IMG/VR virus record: IMGVR_UViG_3300034061_003894
Span: 1-38,024 of that record
DNA: 38,024 nt
Source: a virus
Strand: one strand, 5' to 3'
The notes below the pieces were generated by a model that did not search any database, was not told the origin of the DNA, and saw nothing but the letters and a program-made list of their open reading frames with translations. Shown in pieces: positions 2,087 through 19,694 of this stretch. Each line of letters starts with the position of its first letter. Position 1 is the first letter of the stretch. Made by a program: the position numbers and the translations under genes.

Positions 2087-3898
2087 TCAGGTGATCGTGA
2101 TGGCGCGCGAGAACGCGCCGGCCTGGCGGATGCCCACGTCGACCGTCGCCCACGCCCGCACGCCGATGATCCCGGCCGGGAAGTTGGCGTACGGGTTGAC
2201 CTCGAGCTCGAGGTCCGCCCACATGCCGACGATCACCTGCGAGAAGTCGCCGAACACCATCGAGGCCGCGGTCAGCGCCGTGGTCGTGGTCGCGCGGAAG
2301 CCGGCCATCTGGCCGTCGAGCACCGACCCTTGCCACAGCGGCGTGTCGGTGTTCGAGAACCGCGCGCGCTGGGCGAGCAGCGCCGCCACCGCGGGCGTGG
2401 TGACGTACGCACAGCCCGGGACCAGCGCGTTCGCCGCGGCGAGGTCGGTCTGGAACTCGAGCACGCCGGCGTAGCCCAGCGTCGTGCCCGTCACCGACCC
2501 GATGCCACCGGTGCCGCTGATGCCGGTCGGCTGCGCCGAGCCGCTGCCCTCGAAGCCGGCGATGTCGATCGCGCGCGCGACGACGGCCGCCAGGTCGTCC
2601 ATCACGATCTGCTCGACGCCCGGCGCCGACTGCTGCGTGAGCTGCTTCGAAATCTCGGTGTACGCGCCCACCTGCTTCGGGGTCATCGTCACCTGACCGA
2701 TCGTCTGGTCGCTCTCGGTGATCGCCGTCGCCTCGTTCGTCAACCAGTACGCGGTGCCCGCGCCGGTCTGCTTCGGAATCGCGACGTTGCCGACCAGGCC
2801 GGGCAGCATCCGCGCGCCCAGGCCGGCGAGCAGCGTGCGAGCGCGCAGCAGCTCGATGAACGAGCCGGCGAGCTGGTCGGTGCCGACGAGCTTGCTGCCG
2901 TTGTTCGCCGACGCCGCGGTCAGGTCCCGCTGCTGGACGTCGAACGGCAAGTAGAACGAGTTGGTGCGCTTGCTCGGGCCGATGCGCTTCTCGATCGCGC
3001 GGTGGGCCTCGAGCTCGAGCCCGGCCTTCGACCAGTCGCCGGTGGCGGCGGCCAGCACGGCGCGCAGCACCGAGTAGCGCTTGACGTCTTTCGACTCCAT
3101 GCCGAGCTCGGGCGAGCCCCCGGCGGTCGGCGCCGGCGCGCGCTTGCCCATCTCGGTCAGCACGTGCCGGCCGAACGCGTCGGCGGGCAGGTTGTCCGAG
3201 ACGGCCCGCTGCACGACCTGGTCGTCCACCGTCCAGCGACGCGCGATGGCGTAGATGTCGGCGATGCGCTGACGCTCCGCCGCTTGGATCGCCGCCACGT
3301 CGACGGCATGGGGTGCCGGCGCGGCCGGCTGCACGATGGGCTGTTCCATCTTCGCTTCCTTGTGCGGCTCATCGCCGCGAATGGTGATTTCCTGCTCGTC
3401 GCCGTCGTCGGCGCGACCGATCCCCACGGTGGGGTCGGCGGGCACGCTGACCAGCGACACCTCGAACGGCTCGAAGTCCATGACGCGGTAGGTCGGCACG
3501 CCTTCGACCTCGCGCTCGTGCTGCATCGCGTGGATGCGATACCCGAACGACGAGTTCTTCCGGATGCCGTCCTTGACGTCCTGGAACACTTCCTCGGCTC
3601 GCGCGCTTCGGCCGAAGCGCACCTTTGCCCGCGCCACGCGGTCACCGCCGATCGACACGTCCTCGATCACGCCCACGATGTCCCGCGAGTCGTGATCCAC
3701 CAACAGCGGCCCCCCCGCCTGCAGCCGGCCAAGGCGCATCGACGAGGGTTCCACGTTGAGCACTTCGACACCCCAGGAGCGCTCGTACGGCTCCTCGGAC
3801 GCGAACGCCAGCACCGCGGTCCTCGACTCCTCGTCGAGCGCCGCACGGTCCAGCGTGAACGACCGGAACTGGCGTCCGGCCTTAATCGTCTTGGTCAT
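2087..3898 (-). CDS. fused prohead protease and HK97-fold major capsid protein
   Basis: One 603-aa protein joins two usually separate head functions. Residues 1-165 resemble the HK97-type prohead protease (S78/U35): a His in LLVDHD (H69), a Ser in NSSFGY (S117) and an acidic residue in FEVSLV (E146) are the likely catalytic set. Residues 170-265 form an Ala/Pro/charged, helical linker that can act as scaffold (delta domain). Residues 270-603 fit the Phage_capsid family: N-arm, KQVGAYTEIS motif, GSGSAQPTGI loop near 452-460 and a C-terminal ANFPAGIIGVRAW segment. It follows the portal gene with a 17-base overlap. An in-frame ATG at 3349, with AAGGAAG 5 bases upstream, could make a separate 420-aa scaffold-capsid form, as with lambda C/Nu3 nesting. 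Confidence 0.92.
   Translation of the reverse strand: MTKTIKAGRQFRSFTLDRAALDEESRTAVLAFASEEPYERSWGVEVLNVEPSSMRLGRLQAGGPLLVDHDSRDIVGVIEDVSIGGDRVARAKVRFGRSARAEEVFQDVKDGIRKNSSFGYRIHAMQHEREVEGVPTYRVMDFEPFEVSLVSVPADPTVGIGRADDGDEQEITIRGDEPHKEAKMEQPIVQPAAPAPHAVDVAAIQAAERQRIADIYAIARRWTVDDQVVQRAVSDNLPADAFGRHVLTEMGKRAPAPTAGGSPELGMESKDVKRYSVLRAVLAAATGDWSKAGLELEAHRAIEKRIGPSKRTNSFYLPFDVQQRDLTAASANNGSKLVGTDQLAGSFIELLRARTLLAGLGARMLPGLVGNVAIPKQTGAGTAYWLTNEATAITESDQTIGQVTMTPKQVGAYTEISKQLTQQSAPGVEQIVMDDLAAVVARAIDIAGFEGSGSAQPTGISGTGGIGSVTGTTLGYAGVLEFQTDLAAANALVPGCAYVTTPAVAALLAQRARFSNTDTPLWQGSVLDGQMAGFRATTTTALTAASMVFGDFSQVIVGMWADLELEVNPYANFPAGIIGVRAWATVDVGIRQAGAFSRAITIT
3347..3361 (-). promoter_or_regulatory. internal ribosome-binding site and ATG inside the protease-capsid gene
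   Basis: AAGGAAG at 3361-3355 sits 5 bases before an in-frame ATG at 3349-3347 (Met184 of the fusion). Initiation here would give the scaffold plus capsid without the protease, in the excess over protease that head assembly requires. This is inferred from spacing and biology, and SD-like codons for Lys-Glu can occur by chance. Confidence 0.5.
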
Positions 3899-13323: not shown

Positions 13324-13568
13324 CGGTCGTCCTTTCGTCCGATGTCGGCGCCCATCGCCTGGGGCCGCACGCGGCCGTACGCTGCCTGCATGGCGGCGAC
13401 GTGTCCGTAGAGATGCTGGGCAAGGAGCTCGCGGACGTACTCGCTCGCCGAGCCGTAGCCGGCGGCGATCGCCAGCGCGGCCAGGTGTTCCTTCACCTGC
13501 GAAGGCAGGGGAACGTCGAGGCGGTCGTCACACTTGCCCAGCACGGAACTGCTGCTCGGTCTGGTCAT
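13320..13568 (-). CDS. ribbon-helix-helix (CopG-like) DNA-binding protein
   Basis: Residues 13-50 follow the ribbon-helix-helix layout: a beta strand RLDVPLPSQV, a first helix (KEHLAALAIAAG), a turn (YGSASEYV), and a second helix (RELLAQHLYGH). Such dimers bind DNA with paired strands and often repress. The start at 13568 (MTRPSSSS) is preferred because it overlaps the stop of a short upstream frame as ATGA. An alternative ATG at 13589 would give an 89-aa form; neither has a strong ribosome-binding site. It lies in the leftward early cluster after the Cro-like gene. Confidence 0.7.
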   Translation of the reverse strand: MTRPSSSSVLGKCDDRLDVPLPSQVKEHLAALAIAAGYGSASEYVRELLAQHLYGHVAAMQAAYGRVRPQAMGADIGRKDDR

Positions 13569-13660
13569 GCCATCTTGGGGGAAGTACATGGACGCACGCG
13601 AGAGATATGGTTCTTGTACGGGGAGAACTGGCCCCGGCCCTTGCGATCGGAGAGCGGCAT
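13565..13660 (-). CDS. possible 31-aa peptide
   Basis: A 31-codon frame starting MPLSDRKGRGQF lies between the Cro-like gene and the ribbon-helix-helix gene. Its stop overlaps the preferred ribbon-helix-helix start (ATGA), and third positions are GC-rich in its first half. No good ribosome-binding site is seen. It may be a leader peptide for coupling rather than a functional protein. Confidence 0.3.
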   Translation of the reverse strand: MPLSDRKGRGQFSPYKNHISRVRPCTSPKMA

Positions 13661-13667
13661 TACCCGC

Positions 13668-13898
13668 TCATGCCGCCCTCGCCTCCTGCGGATGCTCCGG
13701 GTCGACGGGCACCGCCTCAAAGCGGTAGCCGAAATACGCGGCCAGCGCGTCGATCCGCGATGACCATGCGTTGTCCGCCGCTCCACCTTTCAGGTGATGC
13801 AACGTGCGAGCCGGAATGCCCGTAGCCTCGCTCACGCGCGCGATGGACACCTCGGGCTCATTGAGCTTGTCGACCACGAACTGGGCTGGGGTGCGCAT
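13668..13898 (-). CDS. Cro-like helix-turn-helix regulator (76 aa)
   Basis: The first gene of the leftward early operon. It contains a short helix-turn-helix (VSIARVSEATGIPARTLHHL) around residues 16-35, followed by one or two helices. The layout fits a small Cro/C1-type DNA-binding protein that recognises operators and blocks the divergent repressor. A GTG at 13901 directly precedes the ATG at 13898; either could serve. A promoter with a TATGAT -10 lies just upstream (13951-13922). It is divergent from the XRE repressor gene, the classic immunity layout. Confidence 0.75.
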   Translation of the reverse strand: MRTPAQFVVDKLNEPEVSIARVSEATGIPARTLHHLKGGAADNAWSSRIDALAAYFGYRFEAVPVDPEHPQEARAA

Positions 13899-13915
13899 CA
13901 CGTCCGATCAAAGTT

Positions 13916-13951
13916 TTGCACATCATACAAGCAACACATTGCGCAGTGCAA
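13916..13951. promoter_or_regulatory. operator-like dyads between the divergent regulators
   Basis: TTGCGCAGTGCAA (13939-13951) and a wider TTGC...GCAA dyad of 19 bp (13916-13934) flank and cover the leftward promoter. Their half-sites resemble those of the perfect 19-bp dyad at 14934-14952, so one repressor could bind both places. Confidence 0.45.
13922..13951 (-). promoter_or_regulatory. leftward early promoter
   Basis: On the minus strand: a -35 of TTGCAC (13951-13946), 18 bases, and a -10 of TATGAT (13927-13922). Transcription would start near 13915, about 17 bases before the Cro-like start codon, and feed the replication and Q genes. Confidence 0.6.
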
Positions 13952-13968
13952 GGACCACCCTCGATCGA

Positions 13969-14337
13969 ATGGACAAACCGCTTGCGCAGATCGTTGCTGA
14001 GAACGTGAGAGCGGCTCGACGGCATCGGAAGATCGATTCGTACCGCGAGCTCGCTGGCAAGGCCAAAGTTGCCCCGAATTCAGTCAAGAATCTTGAGGAG
14101 CCGGAACAGCGCGCGCTGGGCAAGCGGGGCTCGGCAGCTCCGAGACTGGACATCCTGGACAAAGTGGCGGGTGCGATGGGGTTCGCGACGTGGCAGCTGC
14201 TCGTGCGAGACTTCGACCCAGCCAACCCGCCACCGTTGGCACCTCCATCGGATCGCGAGGTCAAGGCATGGCGAAAGATCGAGCAGGCGTACCGCGATCT
14301 CGACAAAGAAAAGTTCGACGGCAACTCGCGGGAATAG
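13969..14337 (+). CDS. XRE-family repressor, CI-position
   Basis: The 122-aa protein has an XRE helix-turn-helix in residues 8-60: IVAENVRAARR, then ELAGKAKVAPNSVKNLEE as turn and recognition helix. A segment on choosing a partner helix (RLDILDKVAGAMG) follows. It lacks the S24/LexA C-terminal protease domain of lambda CI, so induction would need another route, such as displacement by the Cro-like protein or a host signal. It is divergent from the Cro-like gene across 70 bases of promoter and operator sequence. The start at 13969 has only a weak ribosome-binding site, and longer frames enter the divergent gene. Its 3' end overlaps the secreted-protein gene by 70 bases. Confidence 0.75.
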   Translation: MDKPLAQIVAENVRAARRHRKIDSYRELAGKAKVAPNSVKNLEEPEQRALGKRGSAAPRLDILDKVAGAMGFATWQLLVRDFDPANPPPLAPPSDREVKAWRKIEQAYRDLDKEKFDGNSRE

Positions 14338-14894
14338 CGCTTTCCGCGGCCGCTCAGGCTGCTTTCGCGCAGCCCCCACTTGAGTTCAAGGGCCTGCCGC
14401 TCGGCTCCTCGGTCGACCAAGCCAAGCAGCACTTTGCCGCCCTGGAGTGCCGCCCCAGCACGGGGGCGGCGGAACTGGGCGATACCGTGTGCTTCAGCCT
14501 GGCGCGCATTGGATGCCCAGTCGGCGGCTGCGAGAAGCCCACCCTGGCGACCTACGCTGGCGTCGACCTCGAGCTCGCCGTGCTGCACTTCGGCGGCGAC
14601 CGCCTCCTGTCCGTGAGCATGCGGTACAAGCCCGAGGTTGCCGATCAGATCATCGAGGCGATCACTCTCAAGCACGGCAAGCCGACCGCGGACACTCGCA
14701 CTACCGTGCAGAACCGAATGGGCGCCGCCTTTGAACAGCGCGAGGCCACCTGGGATACACCCGGCGGCCGCCTGAAGGTCTCGCGATACGCCGGCCGCGT
14801 CACCTCCGGACTTGCATCCATCACCGGTATCGACGCAGTGCAGTACATGCAATCGCGACGACCGTCGAAGGAACAGCGACTCAACGACATGTAG
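14268..14894 (+). CDS. secreted (periplasmic) protein, candidate lysogenic-conversion gene
   Basis: The start at 14268 is chosen because it opens a signal peptide and has a GAGG about 9 bases upstream. The product is 208 aa. The n-region is strongly basic (residues 3-19). The h-region is LAGIALSAAAQAAFA, with a likely cut after AFA before QPP. The mature protein has several Cys, a repeated LGSS/VDQAK-type motif, and a C-terminal TVQNRMGAAFEQ-like stretch that recurs in small proteobacterial proteins of unknown function. It lies downstream of the repressor and on the same strand, so it is probably expressed in the lysogen. A role at the cell envelope, such as exclusion of other phages, is inference. 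Confidence 0.65.
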   Translation: MAKDRAGVPRSRQRKVRRQLAGIALSAAAQAAFAQPPLEFKGLPLGSSVDQAKQHFAALECRPSTGAAELGDTVCFSLARIGCPVGGCEKPTLATYAGVDLELAVLHFGGDRLLSVSMRYKPEVADQIIEAITLKHGKPTADTRTTVQNRMGAAFEQREATWDTPGGRLKVSRYAGRVTSGLASITGIDAVQYMQSRRPSKEQRLNDM

Positions 14895-14911
14895 CCCAGA
14901 CCGATTTCCAG

Positions 14912-14928
14912 GGCCGCGGTTCGCGGCC
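14912..14928 (+). terminator. hairpin after the repressor/secreted-protein unit
   Basis: A perfect 7-bp stem (GGCCGCG / CGCGGCC) with a 3-base loop starts 17 bases after the secreted-protein stop and is followed by ATTCCTTT. It is a plausible, modest terminator separating the lysogenic unit from the rightward early promoter. Confidence 0.5.
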
Positions 14929-14933
14929 ATTCC

Positions 14934-14952
14934 TTTGCGCGAACTGCGCAAA
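14934..14952. promoter_or_regulatory. perfect 19-bp operator-like dyad
   Basis: TTTGCGCGAACTGCGCAAA is a perfect 7-bp inverted repeat with a 5-base spacer, ending 7 bases before the -35 of the rightward promoter. A second dyad (TTGCGCATTCGCAA, 14990-15003) follows the -10. Both fit binding of the XRE repressor or the Cro-like protein. Confidence 0.6.
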
Positions 14953-14959
14953 ATGTTGC

Positions 14960-14988
14960 TTGCGTGTCGCCGCCGTTTCGTGCATAGT
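14960..14988 (+). promoter_or_regulatory. rightward early promoter
   Basis: A -35 of TTGCGT (14960-14965), 17 bases, and a -10 of CATAGT (14983-14988), bracketed by operator-like dyads. Downstream is a GGAGG at 15015 and the first gene of the rightward early operon at 15024. Confidence 0.55.
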
Positions 14989-15023
14989 TTTGCGCATTCG
15001 CAACTACGGCCTACGGAGGCGCG

Positions 15024-15215
15024 ATGCACATCACCCCCCGCAGCGAGTCCCGCTACCGCTGCCACCTGATCCGCACGTATGCGATCGCCGAGACCGGCGA
15101 GCGCGAGGTCGTGCAGCTGCGCGCGCCGAGCGCCGCGCTCGCGGCCCGCCTGGCGCTGCACGTCACCGGCGCGGCCGCCGTCGTCGAGGTCGAGCGGATC
15201 GAGGACGCGTCGTGA
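15024..15215 (+). CDS. small early protein of unknown function (63 aa)
   Basis: The first gene of the rightward early operon, with the strongest ribosome-binding site of that operon (GGAGG, 4 bases before ATG). The product has a basic N-terminus, a strand-helix-strand pattern (VVQLRAPSAALAARLALHV) and a short acidic end (VVEVERIEDAS). This could be a small ferredoxin-like or RNA-binding-like fold. I do not recognise it. Its stop overlaps the next GTG start. Confidence 0.65.
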   Translation: MHITPRSESRYRCHLIRTYAIAETGEREVVQLRAPSAALAARLALHVTGAAAVVEVERIEDAS

Positions 15216-15523
15216 GCGCCCCCGATCCCGTCACCGTGCACCAGCTGCTGACGCGGGACGAGATCCTCGAGCTCACGCCGCTGCCCGGGTTCACCCGGCG
15301 CGACTGGCTCGAGGTCCTGGTGCGACACGTCGAGGCCGACACGCTGCAGCGCGCGGCGCGTCTGGCGCGCGAGCTCGAGGTGCTGCTGCCGCACTCCGGC
15401 ATCGTGCGCGAGGCCGTCGCCGTCGCGCTCAAGTCGCGCGCATCGGCCGCCGCGCGCATCGCCTCGCGGATCGTCACCGACGACGTCGTGCGGCGCACCG
15501 CGCACCTGCGGAGGGTCAAGTGA
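15212..15523 (+). CDS. early protein of unknown function (103 aa)
   Basis: The GTG start at 15212 overlaps the previous stop (GTGA); upstream in-frame codons belong to another gene's region. The product is mostly helical, with an acidic-basic alternation, and ends in Arg-rich residues (VRRTAHLRRVK). There is no signal or membrane segment. It is coupled to the next gene by TGATG. No family recognised. Confidence 0.65.
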   Translation: MSAPDPVTVHQLLTRDEILELTPLPGFTRRDWLEVLVRHVEADTLQRAARLARELEVLLPHSGIVREAVAVALKSRASAAARIASRIVTDDVVRRTAHLRRVK

Positions 15524-15693
15524 TGGTCCGCCAGCCCCCGCAACCGACCGCGCCGCTGCTCGACGGCCTGCGCGGACCCATGTCCGACGCGACCCTGCGC
15601 GAGCTGCAGCGCCGGATCGCGGAGAAGCGCGCCGCCGCGATCGCCGAGCTCGGCGACCGGTGGCTCCTGCACCCTTCGAGGCGCCTGAAATGA
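15523..15693 (+). CDS. early protein of unknown function (56 aa)
   Basis: Starts with TGATG after the previous gene and ends with ATGA into the next. The C-terminal 35 residues form one amphipathic helix (LRELQRRIAEKRAAAIAEL). A small DNA- or protein-binding peptide is possible; nothing specific is recognised. Confidence 0.55.
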   Translation: MVRQPPQPTAPLLDGLRGPMSDATLRELQRRIAEKRAAAIAELGDRWLLHPSRRLK

Positions 15694-15893
15694 ACGCGAT
15701 CCTGACCCGCTGGCACGCCTGGGCGGCCGCCAGCGCCACCCGTCGGCAGCGCATGTCGATGCTCGCCGACCTGGACTTCGACTCGCCGCGGCCGCGCATG
15801 TCGCGCGCCGACGTCGCGGCCGGCGCCGTGCTGCTGCTGCTCTCGGGCGGGTTCACCGTCTGGGTCGCGACGCTTCTCGCGGGGGCCGTCTGA
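15690..15893 (+). CDS. small membrane protein (67 aa)
   Basis: The start at 15690 (MNAILTRW) overlaps the preceding stop by ATGA. The first 40 residues are polar and basic. Residues 42-66 (ADVAAGAVLLLLSGGFTVWV and on) make a single C-terminal transmembrane helix, so the N-terminus is probably cytosolic. Early membrane proteins of temperate phages often affect superinfection or host membrane processes; that role is inferred. Confidence 0.6.
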   Translation: MNAILTRWHAWAAASATRRQRMSMLADLDFDSPRPRMSRADVAAGAVLLLLSGGFTVWVATLLAGAV

Positions 15894-16507
15894 TGCAGAT
15901 CATCGGCATCACCGGGCGCGCGGGTGCGGGCAAGGACAGCGTCGCGAACGCGCTGCAGGAGCGGCGACCGGGCGTCGGCCGCGCCGCGTTCGCGGACGCG
16001 CTCAAGGCCGAGGCGGCGGCGGCCTTCGGCGTCGATCTCGCGCTGTTCACCGACCCGGCGCTCAAGGAACGCCCCGCCCGCGAGCTGTCGTCGGTGCGGT
16101 GCACCGAGCCCGCGTTCGCGCGCTACCTGGGCACCCTCGAGTGGTTCGCCGAGCTGCGGCCGCGCACGATCATGCAGCAGTGGGGCGACTGGAGGCGCCA
16201 GCAGGACCCCGACTACTGGGTCCGGATGCTGTCGATTACCGTCGAGGCCGCGCGCGGCATGGGATTCGCCGCGTTCGTCGTCACCGACGTGCGCTACCCC
16301 AACGAGCTCGAGTGGTTGCGCGGCGCGGGCGGCGTGCTCTGGCGCGTTCAGCGCCCCGGGCTGGCGCCGACGTCGGGGCACTCGAGCGAGTGGGCGCTCT
16401 CGGACTCTGCCGCGGACCTGACGATCACCAACGATGACGGGCTCGAGCTGCTCACGCGCCGGGCGACCGATGCGTTCGACGACTTGATGGCCGGGAGCGT
16501 CGCATGA
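15893..16507 (+). CDS. deoxynucleoside monophosphate kinase
   Basis: The 204-aa enzyme phosphorylates dNMPs to dNDPs for phage DNA synthesis. A P-loop lies at residues 8-15 (GRAGAGKD) after the IIGIT strand. The DNMK-type features are the AFADALKAEAAAAFG region near 32-46, a WGDWRRQQDPDYWV motif near 97-110 (nucleotide-binding, as in phage dNMP kinases), and VTDVRYPNELEWL near 135-147, matching the conserved D-x-R-x-x-N-E/D segment. Start overlaps the previous stop (TGATG), and the end overlaps the next ATG by 4 bases. Confidence 0.85.
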   Translation: MQIIGITGRAGAGKDSVANALQERRPGVGRAAFADALKAEAAAAFGVDLALFTDPALKERPARELSSVRCTEPAFARYLGTLEWFAELRPRTIMQQWGDWRRQQDPDYWVRMLSITVEAARGMGFAAFVVTDVRYPNELEWLRGAGGVLWRVQRPGLAPTSGHSSEWALSDSAADLTITNDDGLELLTRRATDAFDDLMAGSVA

Positions 16508-16914
16508 CGGCGTCGGACTCCATCTGCGCCCGCATCGTCGAGACGCTGGCGCTCGCGCCGATGAGCGACGAGGCGCTGATGCACGAGCTCGACATCAACC
16601 GCAGGCAGCTCGGGCAGGCCCGCGGCCACCTGCGCCGGGCCGACCGGGTCGAGCAGGACGACCGTGGGCTCTGGTTCCTCGTCAAGCCGGGCGCGCAGCC
16701 GCTGCCGGTCATCGAGGCCGAGCCGCCGGTGCCGGCCCCGCCCCGGCGGACGGACAGCGAGGCGATCGGCCACCTGGTCGAGCAGCTCACCGCGCCTCGC
16801 CAGGCGCCGTCGATCGCGCTGGGCGACCAGGTGCTGCAGGTGCTGATCGCCGCCGGCCGCGTGACGCAGGACGACATCCGGCTCGCGTCGCAGCTGATCG
16901 GGAGCCGGACGTGA
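16504..16914 (+). CDS. probable DNA-binding protein with a winged-helix N-terminus (136 aa)
   Basis: Residues 5-60 fit a winged helix: an initial helix (ARIVETLALAPMSDEAL), a recognition helix (NRRQLGQARGHLRRADRVEQ) and a wing (RGLWFLV). A Pro/Ala-rich linker (65-80) leads to a second helical region (AIGHLVEQLTAPR). The start overlaps the kinase stop (ATGA). A regulator of the rightward operon or a replication accessory is possible. Assignment is by pattern only. Confidence 0.6.
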   Translation: MTASDSICARIVETLALAPMSDEALMHELDINRRQLGQARGHLRRADRVEQDDRGLWFLVKPGAQPLPVIEAEPPVPAPPRRTDSEAIGHLVEQLTAPRQAPSIALGDQVLQVLIAAGRVTQDDIRLASQLIGSRT

Positions 16915-17120
16915 GGGCGCAGCGCACGCGCCCGCCGATGCTGGTAACGCCGTACTGGGTCTGCGTGCTCGGCAACGAGCGCCTGCTGCAGTGGGGCCTG
17001 TTCGACCGGAAGGCTCACGCCGAGCTGCGGGCAGACGCCGCCTGCACGGGCAGCACCCGGATGCTGCGGTCCAGCATCACGACCGAGCGCGTCTGGATCT
17101 CGCGGAGGGCACCGAGATGA
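16911..17120 (+). CDS. early protein of unknown function (69 aa)
   Basis: The product mixes a short beta-rich part (PYWVCVLGNERLLQW) with an Arg/Thr-rich C-terminus. No signal or membrane segment is visible. It overlaps the genes on both sides by 4 bases. Not recognised. Confidence 0.6.
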   Translation: MRAQRTRPPMLVTPYWVCVLGNERLLQWGLFDRKAHAELRADAACTGSTRMLRSSITTERVWISRRAPR

Positions 17121-17362
17121 GCGACCGCGACGAGCTGCTCGCGCGTATCGACCAGCGGGCCGCGCAGCTGCTCGCCCTGGTGCTCGAGGTGCGGCTGCAG
17201 GTCGAGCACTGCCGCCTGCGGCCGGATCTCGACGCGGGCTACAGCGAGGGCTACCACGTGGCCGCGGCCGACCCGGAGCGCTGGGTCGACATCGGCAGCG
17301 ACCACCTGCAGCAGGGGCTGATGGCGCTGCGGCGCGCGGTGCGGCCGGAGGGGCGGTTCTGA
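17117..17362 (+). CDS. acb2-like: Acb2/Tad1-like helical hairpin protein, candidate anti-CBASS
   Basis: The 81-aa product has two helices: residues 5-32 (LLARIDQRAAQLLALVLEV) and 53-75 (PERWVDIGSDHLQQGLMALR). The second helix matches the signature I recall for the Acb2/DUF7681 family, D-x-R-W-x-x-I-G-x-x-x-L-Q-x-G-F/L-M-A-L-x-R-A-V followed by a P-x-x-F end; here the end is RRAVRPEGRF. Acb2 proteins form hexamers that sequester cyclic di- and trinucleotides and so block CBASS immunity. The intervening loop (33-52) is longer than usual. The ATG at 17117 overlaps the previous stop. It sits in the early anti-defence position, consistent with that role. Not confirmed by search. Confidence 0.6.
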   Translation: MSDRDELLARIDQRAAQLLALVLEVRLQVEHCRLRPDLDAGYSEGYHVAAADPERWVDIGSDHLQQGLMALRRAVRPEGRF

Positions 17363-17766
17363 TGGCCGTGCTGACTGCATCGGAGCACGACGTCACCCGC
17401 CTGTGGGCCGCGGGCCTGTCGTGCGCGGCGATCGCCGCGCGCCGCGGTACGAGCCGATCGACGGTCACGACGCTGCTGTCGCGCGCGAAGCGCGAGCTCG
17501 GCATGCGCGATCGTCGAGCGCTGGCGATCCGCCTGGCCGCCGGCGTCGAGATCGACGAGCAGCCGCGCACTGGCCGGCCCCTTGGCGTCTCCAGGTTCGG
17601 CTACCCGCCCGGCCAGCGCGTGCGGATCATCGGCGGCCGCTACATGGGGCGCGAGGGCGTCTACCGGGCCGCGCACTCGTCGCGGCAAGTTCAGGTACGG
17701 ATCGGCGGGGGGATCGTCGCGATAACCGCCCGCTTCGTCGAGCCGATCGAGCAGGCCCCGGCATGA
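17362..17766 (+). CDS. HTH plus SH3/KOW-like regulator (134 aa)
   Basis: Residues 3-50 resemble a LuxR/sigma-4-type helix-turn-helix (VTRLWAAGLSCAAIAARRG, then TSRSTVTTLLSRAKRELG). After an acidic linker, residues 80-130 form an SH3/KOW-like barrel (PGQRVRIIGGRYMGREGVY, VQVRIGGGIVAITARFVE). The combination of a promoter-like HTH and a NusG-like barrel suggests a role in transcription, but this is not a family I can name. Its ATG overlaps the previous stop codon by one base (TGATG). Confidence 0.6.
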   Translation: MAVLTASEHDVTRLWAAGLSCAAIAARRGTSRSTVTTLLSRAKRELGMRDRRALAIRLAAGVEIDEQPRTGRPLGVSRFGYPPGQRVRIIGGRYMGREGVYRAAHSSRQVQVRIGGGIVAITARFVEPIEQAPA

Positions 17767-17933
17767 CCGACCTCGGCTACCAGCGCCGCCTGCAGGACGC
17801 ACTCGACGCGCTGCGGCGCGCGATGTCGCAGGGCGGCACGTTCGAGCGGGCGTGCGACCACGCCGCGCGCGCCTGGCGGGTGTCGTTCCGCGACCTTGAG
17901 GCAGCGTACCGGGCAAGGGAGGACCCGCTGTGA
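17763..17933 (+). CDS. small early protein of unknown function (56 aa)
   Basis: The ATG overlaps the previous stop (ATGA). Mostly helical: DALDALRRAMSQGG, then ERACDHAARAWRVSFRDLEAAY. The pattern resembles a tiny DNA-binding or adapter peptide, perhaps an HTH (HAARAWRVSFRDL). Its stop overlaps the next GTG. Confidence 0.55.
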   Translation: MTDLGYQRRLQDALDALRRAMSQGGTFERACDHAARAWRVSFRDLEAAYRAREDPL

Positions 17934-18013
17934 ATCCGGAGGACTGGGGGCTGCTTGTGGCGCAGATTCTGCTCGGCGCGCTGGTGGTGATGGTGCTGAT
18001 GGGGGGCGCGTGA
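17930..18013 (+). CDS. 27-aa hydrophobic peptide
   Basis: A GTG start overlapping the previous stop (GTGA), with a TGATG link to the excisionase-like gene, encodes NPEDWGLL followed by one hydrophobic helix (VAQILLGALVVMVLMGGA). It is too short for a usual ORF cutoff. Its coupling on both sides and single membrane segment argue that it is translated. The role is unknown; it may be a small membrane modulator. Confidence 0.5.
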   Translation: MNPEDWGLLVAQILLGALVVMVLMGGA

Positions 18014-18303
18014 TGCGACTGATGGACATCCAAGCGATCGCCGACATGCTGGGGCTGAACGCCGCGCACGTCCGCGACCGGCTGACGAAGCGGCGCGACT
18101 TCCCGCCGGGCTACAGAATCGGCGGCGCGCTGCGCTGGAAGGCCGAGGACATCGAGGACTGGATCGAGTCGCGCAAGGTCACCCCAGCCGCTCGGCGATC
18201 GAGGAGGCCGGCTCGCGGTAGTACGTCAGCAGCTCCGACAGGTTCGAGTGCCCCGACATCCGCGCCAGGTCCAGCGGCTGCAGAACCTTCGCTAGCCGCG
18301 TGA
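18013..18303 (+). CDS. excisionase-like (AlpA/MerR-type) DNA-binding protein
   Basis: Residues 3-57 have a MerR/AlpA-like fold: MDIQAIADMLGLNAAHVRDR, a loop with a basic FPPGYRIGGALRWK segment, then EDIEDWIESR. Phage excisionases of this type bend attP DNA and steer the integrase to excision. The last 40 residues (TSAAPTGSSAPT, AAA) are low-complexity and antisense to the integrase C-terminus, so they may be non-conserved. The gene ends inside the convergent integrase gene, with 125 bases in common. Confidence 0.7.
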   Translation: MRLMDIQAIADMLGLNAAHVRDRLTKRRDFPPGYRIGGALRWKAEDIEDWIESRKVTPAARRSRRPARGSTSAAPTGSSAPTSAPGPAAAEPSLAA

Positions 18304-19168
18304 GCGCCGTCGCGCGCGAGTCGTGAAACACGAACCCGGCCAGCCCTGCCGCCTCGCGCGCTCGCCGGAAGGTCGCGTCAAGCGTGTCGCCCTCCACGTG
18401 GAAGATCCGGCCGTCGGCAGCCGAGCGCGGATGCAGCAGGCGCTTTCCGCCCATGATCCGCAGCAGCTCGACCGCGCGCGTGGAGAGCGGCACCTCGCGG
18501 CCCGGCCCGGTCTTGGACTTGTGCAGCACCGCGACGCGGCGGCGGTAGTCCACGTCGGGGGGCCTAAGCGCCAGGATCTCGCCGGCCCGCATGGCGGTCT
18601 CCAGCGCGAGCAGGAACGCCACCGCTGCCTCGTGCTTGACCGTCTCGACCGTGGCACCGTCGAACCCGAGCGCGGCGACCATCGCGTCGCGCTCGGCGTC
18701 GCTGATGAGCCGCTTCCTCGCCGGCTGCTTCGGTGGGCGCTTCACGTCGCGGACCGGGTTGACCGCCACCCAGCGCAGCTCGAGCCGCGCGACCTCGATC
18801 ACGCCGCGCAGCAGCGTGAACTCGCGGCGCACCGTCGCGGGCGCGACGACCTTGATCCGCTCGTCGCGCCATGCGGCGAGGTCGGCCGGAGTCAGCTCGG
18901 CAAGCGGCTTCTTCGCCCATGCCCGGCTCTTGATCTCGGCGAGCCTCGCCCGCTCGGACCGGCCGCGCGGCTTCTGGCCGAGGAAGTGGTCGATCGCCTG
19001 CGCGAGCGTCTGCCTGCCGGCCGGGCCAGTGCCGTCGAGCAGCTCTCCCTCGCGCCGCACGATCCAGTCGGCGGCTTCCTGTCGAGTCTCGAAGGTGGCC
19101 GAGTCGCGCACGCCGCGCCGGAACACCTCGGCCCGGTACGTGCCGCCGCGCTTGCGGATGCTCCCCAT
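18179..19168 (-). CDS. int: tyrosine-recombinase integrase
   Basis: The start at 19168 (MGSIRKRGGTYRAEV) is set by the classic phage N-terminus (GSIRKR...YRAEV is an arm-binding AP2-like module); longer frames have no homology. The product is 329 aa. The core SAM-like domain spans 55-145. Catalytic residues are R194 in TAMRAGEI, K217 in HKSK, H282 and R285 in HDSR, H307 in SGHS, and Y316 or Y317 near TYY. Together these make a complete active site. It recombines attP with a host attB, with Xis reversing. It is convergent and overlapping with the excisionase-like gene, and upstream are dyads that may form attP. Confidence 0.93.
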   Translation of the reverse strand: MGSIRKRGGTYRAEVFRRGVRDSATFETRQEAADWIVRREGELLDGTGPAGRQTLAQAIDHFLGQKPRGRSERARLAEIKSRAWAKKPLAELTPADLAAWRDERIKVVAPATVRREFTLLRGVIEVARLELRWVAVNPVRDVKRPPKQPARKRLISDAERDAMVAALGFDGATVETVKHEAAVAFLLALETAMRAGEILALRPPDVDYRRRVAVLHKSKTGPGREVPLSTRAVELLRIMGGKRLLHPRSAADGRIFHVEGDTLDATFRRAREAAGLAGFVFHDSRATALTRLAKVLQPLDLARMSGHSNLSELLTYYREPASSIAERLG

Positions 19169-19417
19169 CTTGTACGGTGCCCCCCTGGCGTGGTTTGGCG
19201 TAACGCTACCACGGGGGCTACCGGAAAACGCTGGGAATTGTGGGGCGGTGCGAGAATTGGCGGAACCGGCTTGACTGCCCGGAAACGCCCTATCCATGCG
19301 GATCTTGCTTGAATCTGATGGTGCCCCGGGCGGGCACCGATCACCTAGCAGTGGTGCGGCCCGGCGAGCCGTTGGCGTAGGATTGGCGAACGGCTGCGCG
19401 CCGGGGAGAGTGACGGG
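19169..19417. other. integrase upstream region, candidate attP
   Basis: This 249-base gene-free region separates divergent genes. It holds a 23-bp dyad with GTGGT/ACCAC arms (19190-19212) and a GCGTAACGC core, two near-identical CCGGAAAACGC / CCGGAAACGCC direct repeats (19221 and 19279), and two GAATTG boxes (about 19235 and 19254). Repeated short sites like these suit Int/Xis/IHF arm binding at attP. A tRNA end was looked for and not found. The att core cannot be named from this window alone. Confidence 0.35.
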
Positions 19418-19612
19418 ATGGATGAGACCAACTGCGAATGGCTCGATGTGACGACGCCATGCGACGTCGACCGCGTGCTGCTGAACACGCGCACAGGCGA
19501 GAGACGGGCCGAGCCGTGGCCGACGGTCTCGCCGACGATGCAACTCAGGATCGATAAGCTGCTGCGAGAGCTGGGCGATGCGCCCCCACCCGAAAAGGCC
19601 GGCGAGCCGTAG
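19418..19612 (+). CDS. isolated small protein between integrase and late operon (64 aa)
   Basis: The only plus-strand gene in this region. A purine-rich GGGGAGAG precedes the ATG by 8 bases. The product is hydrophilic, acidic-basic and helical at the end (MQLRIDKLLRELG). GC at third positions is about 80 percent, as in coding regions nearby. It overlaps the late terminator hairpin on the other strand. A moron expressed in the lysogen is possible, but nothing specific is recognised. Confidence 0.5.
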   Translation: MDETNCEWLDVTTPCDVDRVLLNTRTGERRAEPWPTVSPTMQLRIDKLLRELGDAPPPEKAGEP

Positions 19613-19621
19613 CCCGCCGGC
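19598..19621 (-). terminator. late operon terminator
   Basis: A perfect 7-bp stem (GCCGGCG / CGCCGGC) with a 10-base loop, followed on the minus strand by CTTTTCGG. It comes about 75 bases after the last late gene (19695) and before the integrase. Confidence 0.6.
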
Positions 19622-19694
19622 GAAGCAGAACACCACCCGCGCAGGTAGCGCAGGGAAGATCACAGGCCCCTGTACGCCGGGGCGGCGCGTAAGC

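Follow-up and report, generated by a model that had tools for sequence, protein, structure and literature searches.

How far a family match tells which signal an anti-defence protein would take up is the question raised by a small gene at positions 17117-17362 (+) of the virus record IMGVR_UViG_3300034061_003894, whose 38,024 bases (70.5% G+C) are the window analysed here. The gene comprises 81 codons and a stop and starts with ATG, and its product is predicted to carry the helical hairpin of Acb2, the phage sponge for cyclic nucleotides. In this study, we provide evidence that the window protein begins where the hairpin begins, so that it is putatively an Acb2-family anti-defence sponge whose N-terminal arm, with a tyrosine of the cyclic dinucleotide pocket, has been lost.

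The hairpin and its missing arm

An earlier note, made from the letters of the window, had read this open reading frame (ORF) as an 81-aa, two-helix protein of the Acb2 family acting as a sponge, and much of that description holds. The ORF is present exactly at 17117-17362 (+) with the translation as described, its second-helix signature PERWVDIGSDHLQQGLMALR and terminal Phe both match the Acb2 family, and the family call was borne out by Pfam, PHROGs, and sequence and fold searches of the PDB. The protein matched PF24729 (Acb2_Tad1_hairpin) at E 2e-5, with 25.2 bits against a Pfam gathering cut-off of 27, and the profile of PHROG 717, the group of homologues of phage T4 Vs.4 (PMC10097602), at E 6e-8. 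A phmmer search of PDB sequences returned Acb2 (8ixz, 8h2j) at E 8e-4, and tblastn matched Acb2 proteins from Pseudomonas, Aeromonas and Vibrio phages. When a profile was made from the relatives with both the window protein and its closest relative, L096, left out, the window protein scored 53 bits (E 7.5e-15), far above chance in a shuffle control (n=5000) whose best score was 12.4 bits. PF24729 matched all 54 sequences of the family alignment, in which the window protein (P0001) and L096 are included, and searches of PADLOC and NCBIfam with the window protein gave no match. Membership in the Acb2 family is thus well supported, and the family, the fold and the sponge principle are already known.

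The two helices of the earlier note were also seen in the AlphaFold model (predicted local distance difference test, pLDDT, 86.9), a helical hairpin with no strands, in which helix 1 spans residues 3-34 (17123-17218, +) and continues at 36-41, and helix 2 spans residues 53-75 (17273-17341, +) and bears the family signature PERWVDIGSDHLQQGLMALRRAV. Foldseek placed Acb2/Vs.4 chains at ranks 1-7 (best E 0.022, template modelling score, TM, up to 0.73), and the top three matches of VIA-align were Acb2/Vs.4 with Z 8.4-9.2. The model was made from an alignment of relatives, and a Z of about 9 does not by itself settle the relationship of a helical hairpin; the fold evidence is weighed here by the order of the matches together with the sequence evidence. 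The note's claim of a longer than usual loop (residues 33-52) did not survive: from the column of Lys26 in the Acb2 of phage PaMx33 to the RW motif of helix 2 the window protein has 43 residues, PaMx33-type Acb2 has 41 by count and the family a median of 36 (range 21-66), and an unusually long inter-helix stretch is ruled out by the 20 of 54 aligned sequences that are as long or longer.

What the earlier note overlooked is the missing arm and the replacement of Lys26 by Asp12. The start of the protein aligns at Acb2 residue 15, and nothing in it corresponds to residues 1-14 of Acb2, which make up the arm that bears Tyr11 (T4 Tyr8); in the VIA-align rows for 8h2x and 8h2j the window protein pairs with Acb2 residues 15-93. 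The absent stretch of PaMx33-type Acb2, MDNQHKKIKGYRDL, carries Tyr11. The Asp12 codon (17150-17152, +) stands in the column of PaMx33 Lys26 and T4 Lys23, where 48 of the 54 sequences have Lys or Arg. T4 Vs.4 holds its dinucleotide by stacking on Tyr8 and Phe82, plus His11, Lys23 and Arg79, and its Y8 or F82 mutants lose CapV inhibition (PMC10097602); Acb2 Y8A no longer triggers the Panoptes guard system (PMC12657218, PMC12657230). Among these contacts, Tyr8 and His11 are absent from the window protein, Lys23 is replaced by Asp12, and Arg79 is kept as Arg73 (17333-17335, +), which is invariant in 54/54. The column of T4 Phe82 holds Arg76 in the window protein and Ala in most relatives; an equivalence of Phe81 with T4 Phe82 was rejected because the alignment puts Phe82 at Arg76 and Phe81 at PaMx33 Phe93.

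The remainder of the hairpin is largely that of the family. Arg55-Trp56 (17279-17284, +) form a near-invariant RW motif (Arg in 52/54, Trp in 54/54), the C-terminal Phe81 (17357-17359, +) falls in a column with Phe or Tyr in 53/54, and Ile59 and the small residues at 60 and 67 are also kept. By alignment, the T4 interface residues A66 and A73 correspond to Gly60 and Gly67, and A77 to Leu71; residues 62-70 lie in the patterns used to recruit relatives, so part of their conservation is artefact and not evidence. Arg67 of the RW motif may line the trinucleotide channel, which we take as a lead only. In Acb2 and Tad1 this channel lies at the trimer interface and is independent of the dinucleotide or gcADPR (glyco-cyclic ADP-ribose) pockets (PMC12043709). 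The sponge function put forward in the earlier note therefore stands in part: the counterparts of Tyr8, His11 and Lys23 are missing or replaced, and the RW motif, helix 2 and the terminal Phe are kept. The absence of nucleotide-binding residues, which the note had named beforehand as counting against its proposal, is largely what was found at the dinucleotide site, the counterpart of Arg79 being kept.

The comparison with L096 bears on whether the arm loss is real. This prophage protein of a Burkholderiales metagenome-assembled genome (JADCHE010000015.1), found in a genome-collection scan, is 83% identical to the window protein and shares with it the first Met, Asp12 and a syntenic operon. The two proteins differ by 14 substitutions, 8 of them within residues 28-44, and the genes by 25 synonymous changes over 62.7 sites and 19 non-synonymous changes over 180.3 sites, a ratio of non-synonymous to synonymous rates (dN/dS) of about 0.2; the identity of 83% is among the highest in the compared cassette, most neighbours having 40-74%. 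A start further upstream that would restore the arm was considered. The open frame extends back to 16898, yet the sole other start in it, GTG at 16991, yields no GYR motif; this start was rejected because, in addition, the frame ahead of the ATG shows no conservation in L096, where the overlapping gene at 16911-17120 has a counterpart. An arm in another frame, reached by frameshift, was likewise rejected, the overlapping gene being without such a motif. Since L096 has the same start and Asp12, these sequence comparisons indicate that the window protein is constrained and N-terminally trimmed, not a mis-called start, a frameshift, a sequencing error or a remnant, and that its gene is under purifying selection. 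No further close relative was found in viral_contigs, nor, G001 aside, among the 399 genomes searched from the order and the 74 searched from the L096 host family.

Loss of Tyr11 and Lys26 across the family

Tyr is found in the Tyr11 column in 46/54 sequences, and about 85% keep both this Tyr and the Lys or Arg of the Lys26 column. Both are missing in six sequences (P0001, L096, L050, L091, L098 and L107), Tyr alone is missing in two (L029 and L081), and Lys/Arg alone is missing in none of the 54, a co-loss with a Fisher's p of 1e-6 when relatedness is ignored. Parsimony on the tree puts about 7 changes at the Tyr column and 5 at the Lys column. L107 (5902-6120 of a Serratia marcescens contig) and L112 (1501-1719 of a viral contig), which are 84% identical, represent a second lineage without Tyr and Lys, with His in the Tyr11 column and Ile in the Lys26 column. 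The pattern is suggestive, though no proof, of a joint loss at the dinucleotide site.

Two other members were observed to depart from the usual form at the N-terminus. L029 (3767-4093) keeps MDNQH and the Lys and has lost the KxIKGYRDL stretch; because its near relatives L023, L033 and L064 keep this stretch, the L029 arm was probably deleted recently. In L005 (1904-2605, Pseudomonas phage RSP), the annotated protein has 233 aa with the Acb2 hairpin in its C-terminal part, and translation from an internal Met would yield an Acb2 of 95 aa that keeps Tyr and has Glu at the Lys26 position; L005 thus has either a mis-called start or a fusion.

Predicted ligand range and rival explanations

We put at about even the chance that the arm-less Acb2 variant continues to assemble and that cyclic trinucleotides are what it preferentially sequesters at the trimer channel, a ligand preference that we infer from the absence of dinucleotide-site residues. 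The hairpins would assemble into an Acb2-type hexamer and so keep the trinucleotide channel at the trimer interface, and little would remain of the two-protomer site that holds cyclic dinucleotides in Acb2, since the arm with Tyr11 is missing and Asp has taken the place of Lys26. From a channel kept and a dinucleotide site largely dismantled it would follow that cyclic trinucleotides such as cyclic tri-adenylate (cA3) or cyclic AMP-AMP-GMP (cAAG) are preferentially sequestered, not cleaved, and dinucleotides are left largely free. Effectors of the NucC/Cap4 type in CBASS (cyclic oligonucleotide-based antiphage signalling system), and any cA3-based output of type III CRISPR, would then be kept off during infection. 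A hairpin without the arm but with the core is how a trinucleotide-only sponge would be expected to look.

Several results weigh against this proposal. The PF24729 score lies 1.8 bits below the gathering cut-off, and PaMx33 Thr74 (in GKT), the equivalent of T4 T68, is Asp62 in the window protein, with Asp common to 9/54; T4 T68M is reported as weakening binding. On the tree, the co-loss of Tyr and Lys comes down to 4 independent supported pairs, of which at most 3 agree and 0 oppose (sign test p 0.25, not significant), and L050, L091 and L107 are long-branch rows with unsure alignment. On the host side, the CBASS SMODS cyclase PF18144 is over its cut-off in 2 of the 74 genomes of the L096 host family, and in G001 there is none.

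Other explanations were also weighed. The protein might be a usual Acb2 sponge of broad range that can do without the arm and binds dinucleotides otherwise, for example by Arg73 and Phe81 with residues from helix 1 of the partner protomer; Arg73 (T4 R79) and a terminal aromatic residue are indeed kept, family membership is clear, and L029, without the GYRDL stretch yet with Lys kept, indicates that partial arm loss occurs elsewhere. We consider this unlikely, as mutation of Y8 or F82 in T4 Vs.4 abolishes CapV inhibition (PMC10097602), Y8A fails to activate Panoptes (PMC12657218), and in the window protein not only is the Tyr gone but the change of Lys to Asp puts an acidic residue at a phosphate-binding position. 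Alternatively, the hairpin might be a sponge retuned to another signal, such as the gcADPR of Thoeris or an unknown cyclic nucleotide, as in Tad1. While Acb2 and Tad1 share one Pfam hairpin domain, and Tad1 binds gcADPR, dinucleotides and trinucleotides (PMC12043709), no direct sign of such a ligand was seen, and we hold this retuning to be quite improbable.

The pocket known to hold dinucleotides is mostly gone, as would also be seen in a former sponge that had given up nucleotide binding and now either has another phage role or persists as a decaying remnant. The dN/dS of about 0.2, the intact frame, the start and synteny shared with L096 and a place among the best conserved proteins of the cassette (83%) speak against it; decay of the gene is unlikely, neofunctionalisation may have occurred, and the probability that we give to the whole is small.

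Returning to preferential trinucleotide sequestering, an arm-less sponge might, by analogy, escape the Panoptes guard system, because Acb2 Y8A no longer triggers it. The Panoptes mCpol PF18182 was found in 0 of the 74 genomes of the L096 host family, and with this and the two genomes bearing CBASS cyclases there is no host-side support for Panoptes evasion. That several phage lineages independently dropped the Acb2 arm and became trinucleotide-only sponges is a tentative idea that we rather doubt; if true, a phage could counter CBASS of the cA3 type and still leave untouched the dinucleotide pools watched by guards such as Panoptes.

Genomic setting and known systems

The - strand of the window encodes a capsid-protease of HK97 type, a lambda-type portal and a gpA terminase. 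Together with a prim-pol primase, an integrase that lies within 18179-19663 (-) and, at 18013-18303 (+), an excisionase-like gene, these mark the window as a temperate tailed phage. At 2090-3898 (-), a single ORF of 603 aa combines the domains of a prohead protease (S78) and an HK97-type major capsid protein. The Acb2-like gene belongs to a cassette of small genes on the + strand, and position makes early expression a reasonable inference; a promoter scan of 13400-18500 found no promoter, and no phage relatives of 14900-18400 were found at the DNA level. A Shine-Dalgarno sequence GGAGGG (17104-17109, +) lies 7 nt before the ATG at 17117. The gene is joined by a 4-nt ATGA overlap to an upstream gene for 69 aa of no family (16911-17120, +), whose counterpart in prophage L096 precedes the relative and likewise ends at an ATGA overlap, and it is coupled by a 1-nt overlap to a downstream gene at 17362-17766 (+). 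The 134-aa product of the latter has an N-terminal helix-turn-helix (HTH) of LuxR/GerE type and, towards the C-terminus, a weak KOW motif at residues 83-100, a combination that suggests a phage regulator or antiterminator. The earlier note had suggested that the neighbouring small unknown genes (15024-18013) may include other counter-defences; the small genes adjoining the Acb2-like gene had no match to a known anti-defence family in family searches, which lends this suggestion no support. The same cassette encodes a deoxynucleotide monophosphate kinase at 15893-16507 (+; PF21448, phrog_139), with an L096 counterpart 73% identical.

No description of an arm-less Acb2 was found in the literature searched, which did not cover key Acb2/Tad1 specificity papers. 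It has been proposed that phages can escape the Panoptes guard system by retuning Acb2 (PMC12657218), and the arm-less variant would test this proposal; in addition, calling family members cyclic GMP-AMP (cGAMP)-binding from a profile match alone can mislead.

Among the known systems, Pseudomonas phage Acb2 (PaMx33/PaMx41 type; 8h2j, 8h2x, 8ixz) resembles the window protein in the hairpin, the C-terminal Phe, a similar helix spacing and a helix 2 of the form RW...I(G/A)...(D/H)(I/L)Q.G.MA..RA. It differs in its residues 1-14, the NQHKKIKGYRDL arm with Tyr11 that the window protein lacks, in Lys26 and Thr74, which are Asp12 and Asp62 here, and in its tail, AQPDSF as against RPEGRF. T4 Vs.4 (Acb2; 7uq2) shares the hairpin fold (VIA Z 8.4), the kept Arg79 and PHROG 717, but its Tyr8 and His11 have no counterpart in the window protein, its Lys23 is replaced by Asp, and the RW motif of the window protein is not found in it. 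Tad1 (Thoeris anti-defence 1) has the Pfam hairpin domain and itself has a trinucleotide channel, but an N-terminal antiparallel beta-sheet precedes its hairpin (PMC12043709), whereas the window protein, with 81 aa, has none. Acb2 itself is known to act as a double sponge, in which two-base and three-base cyclic signals each have a site of their own. A natural member of the family that has largely lost one of these sites and seemingly retains the other would set the two activities apart.
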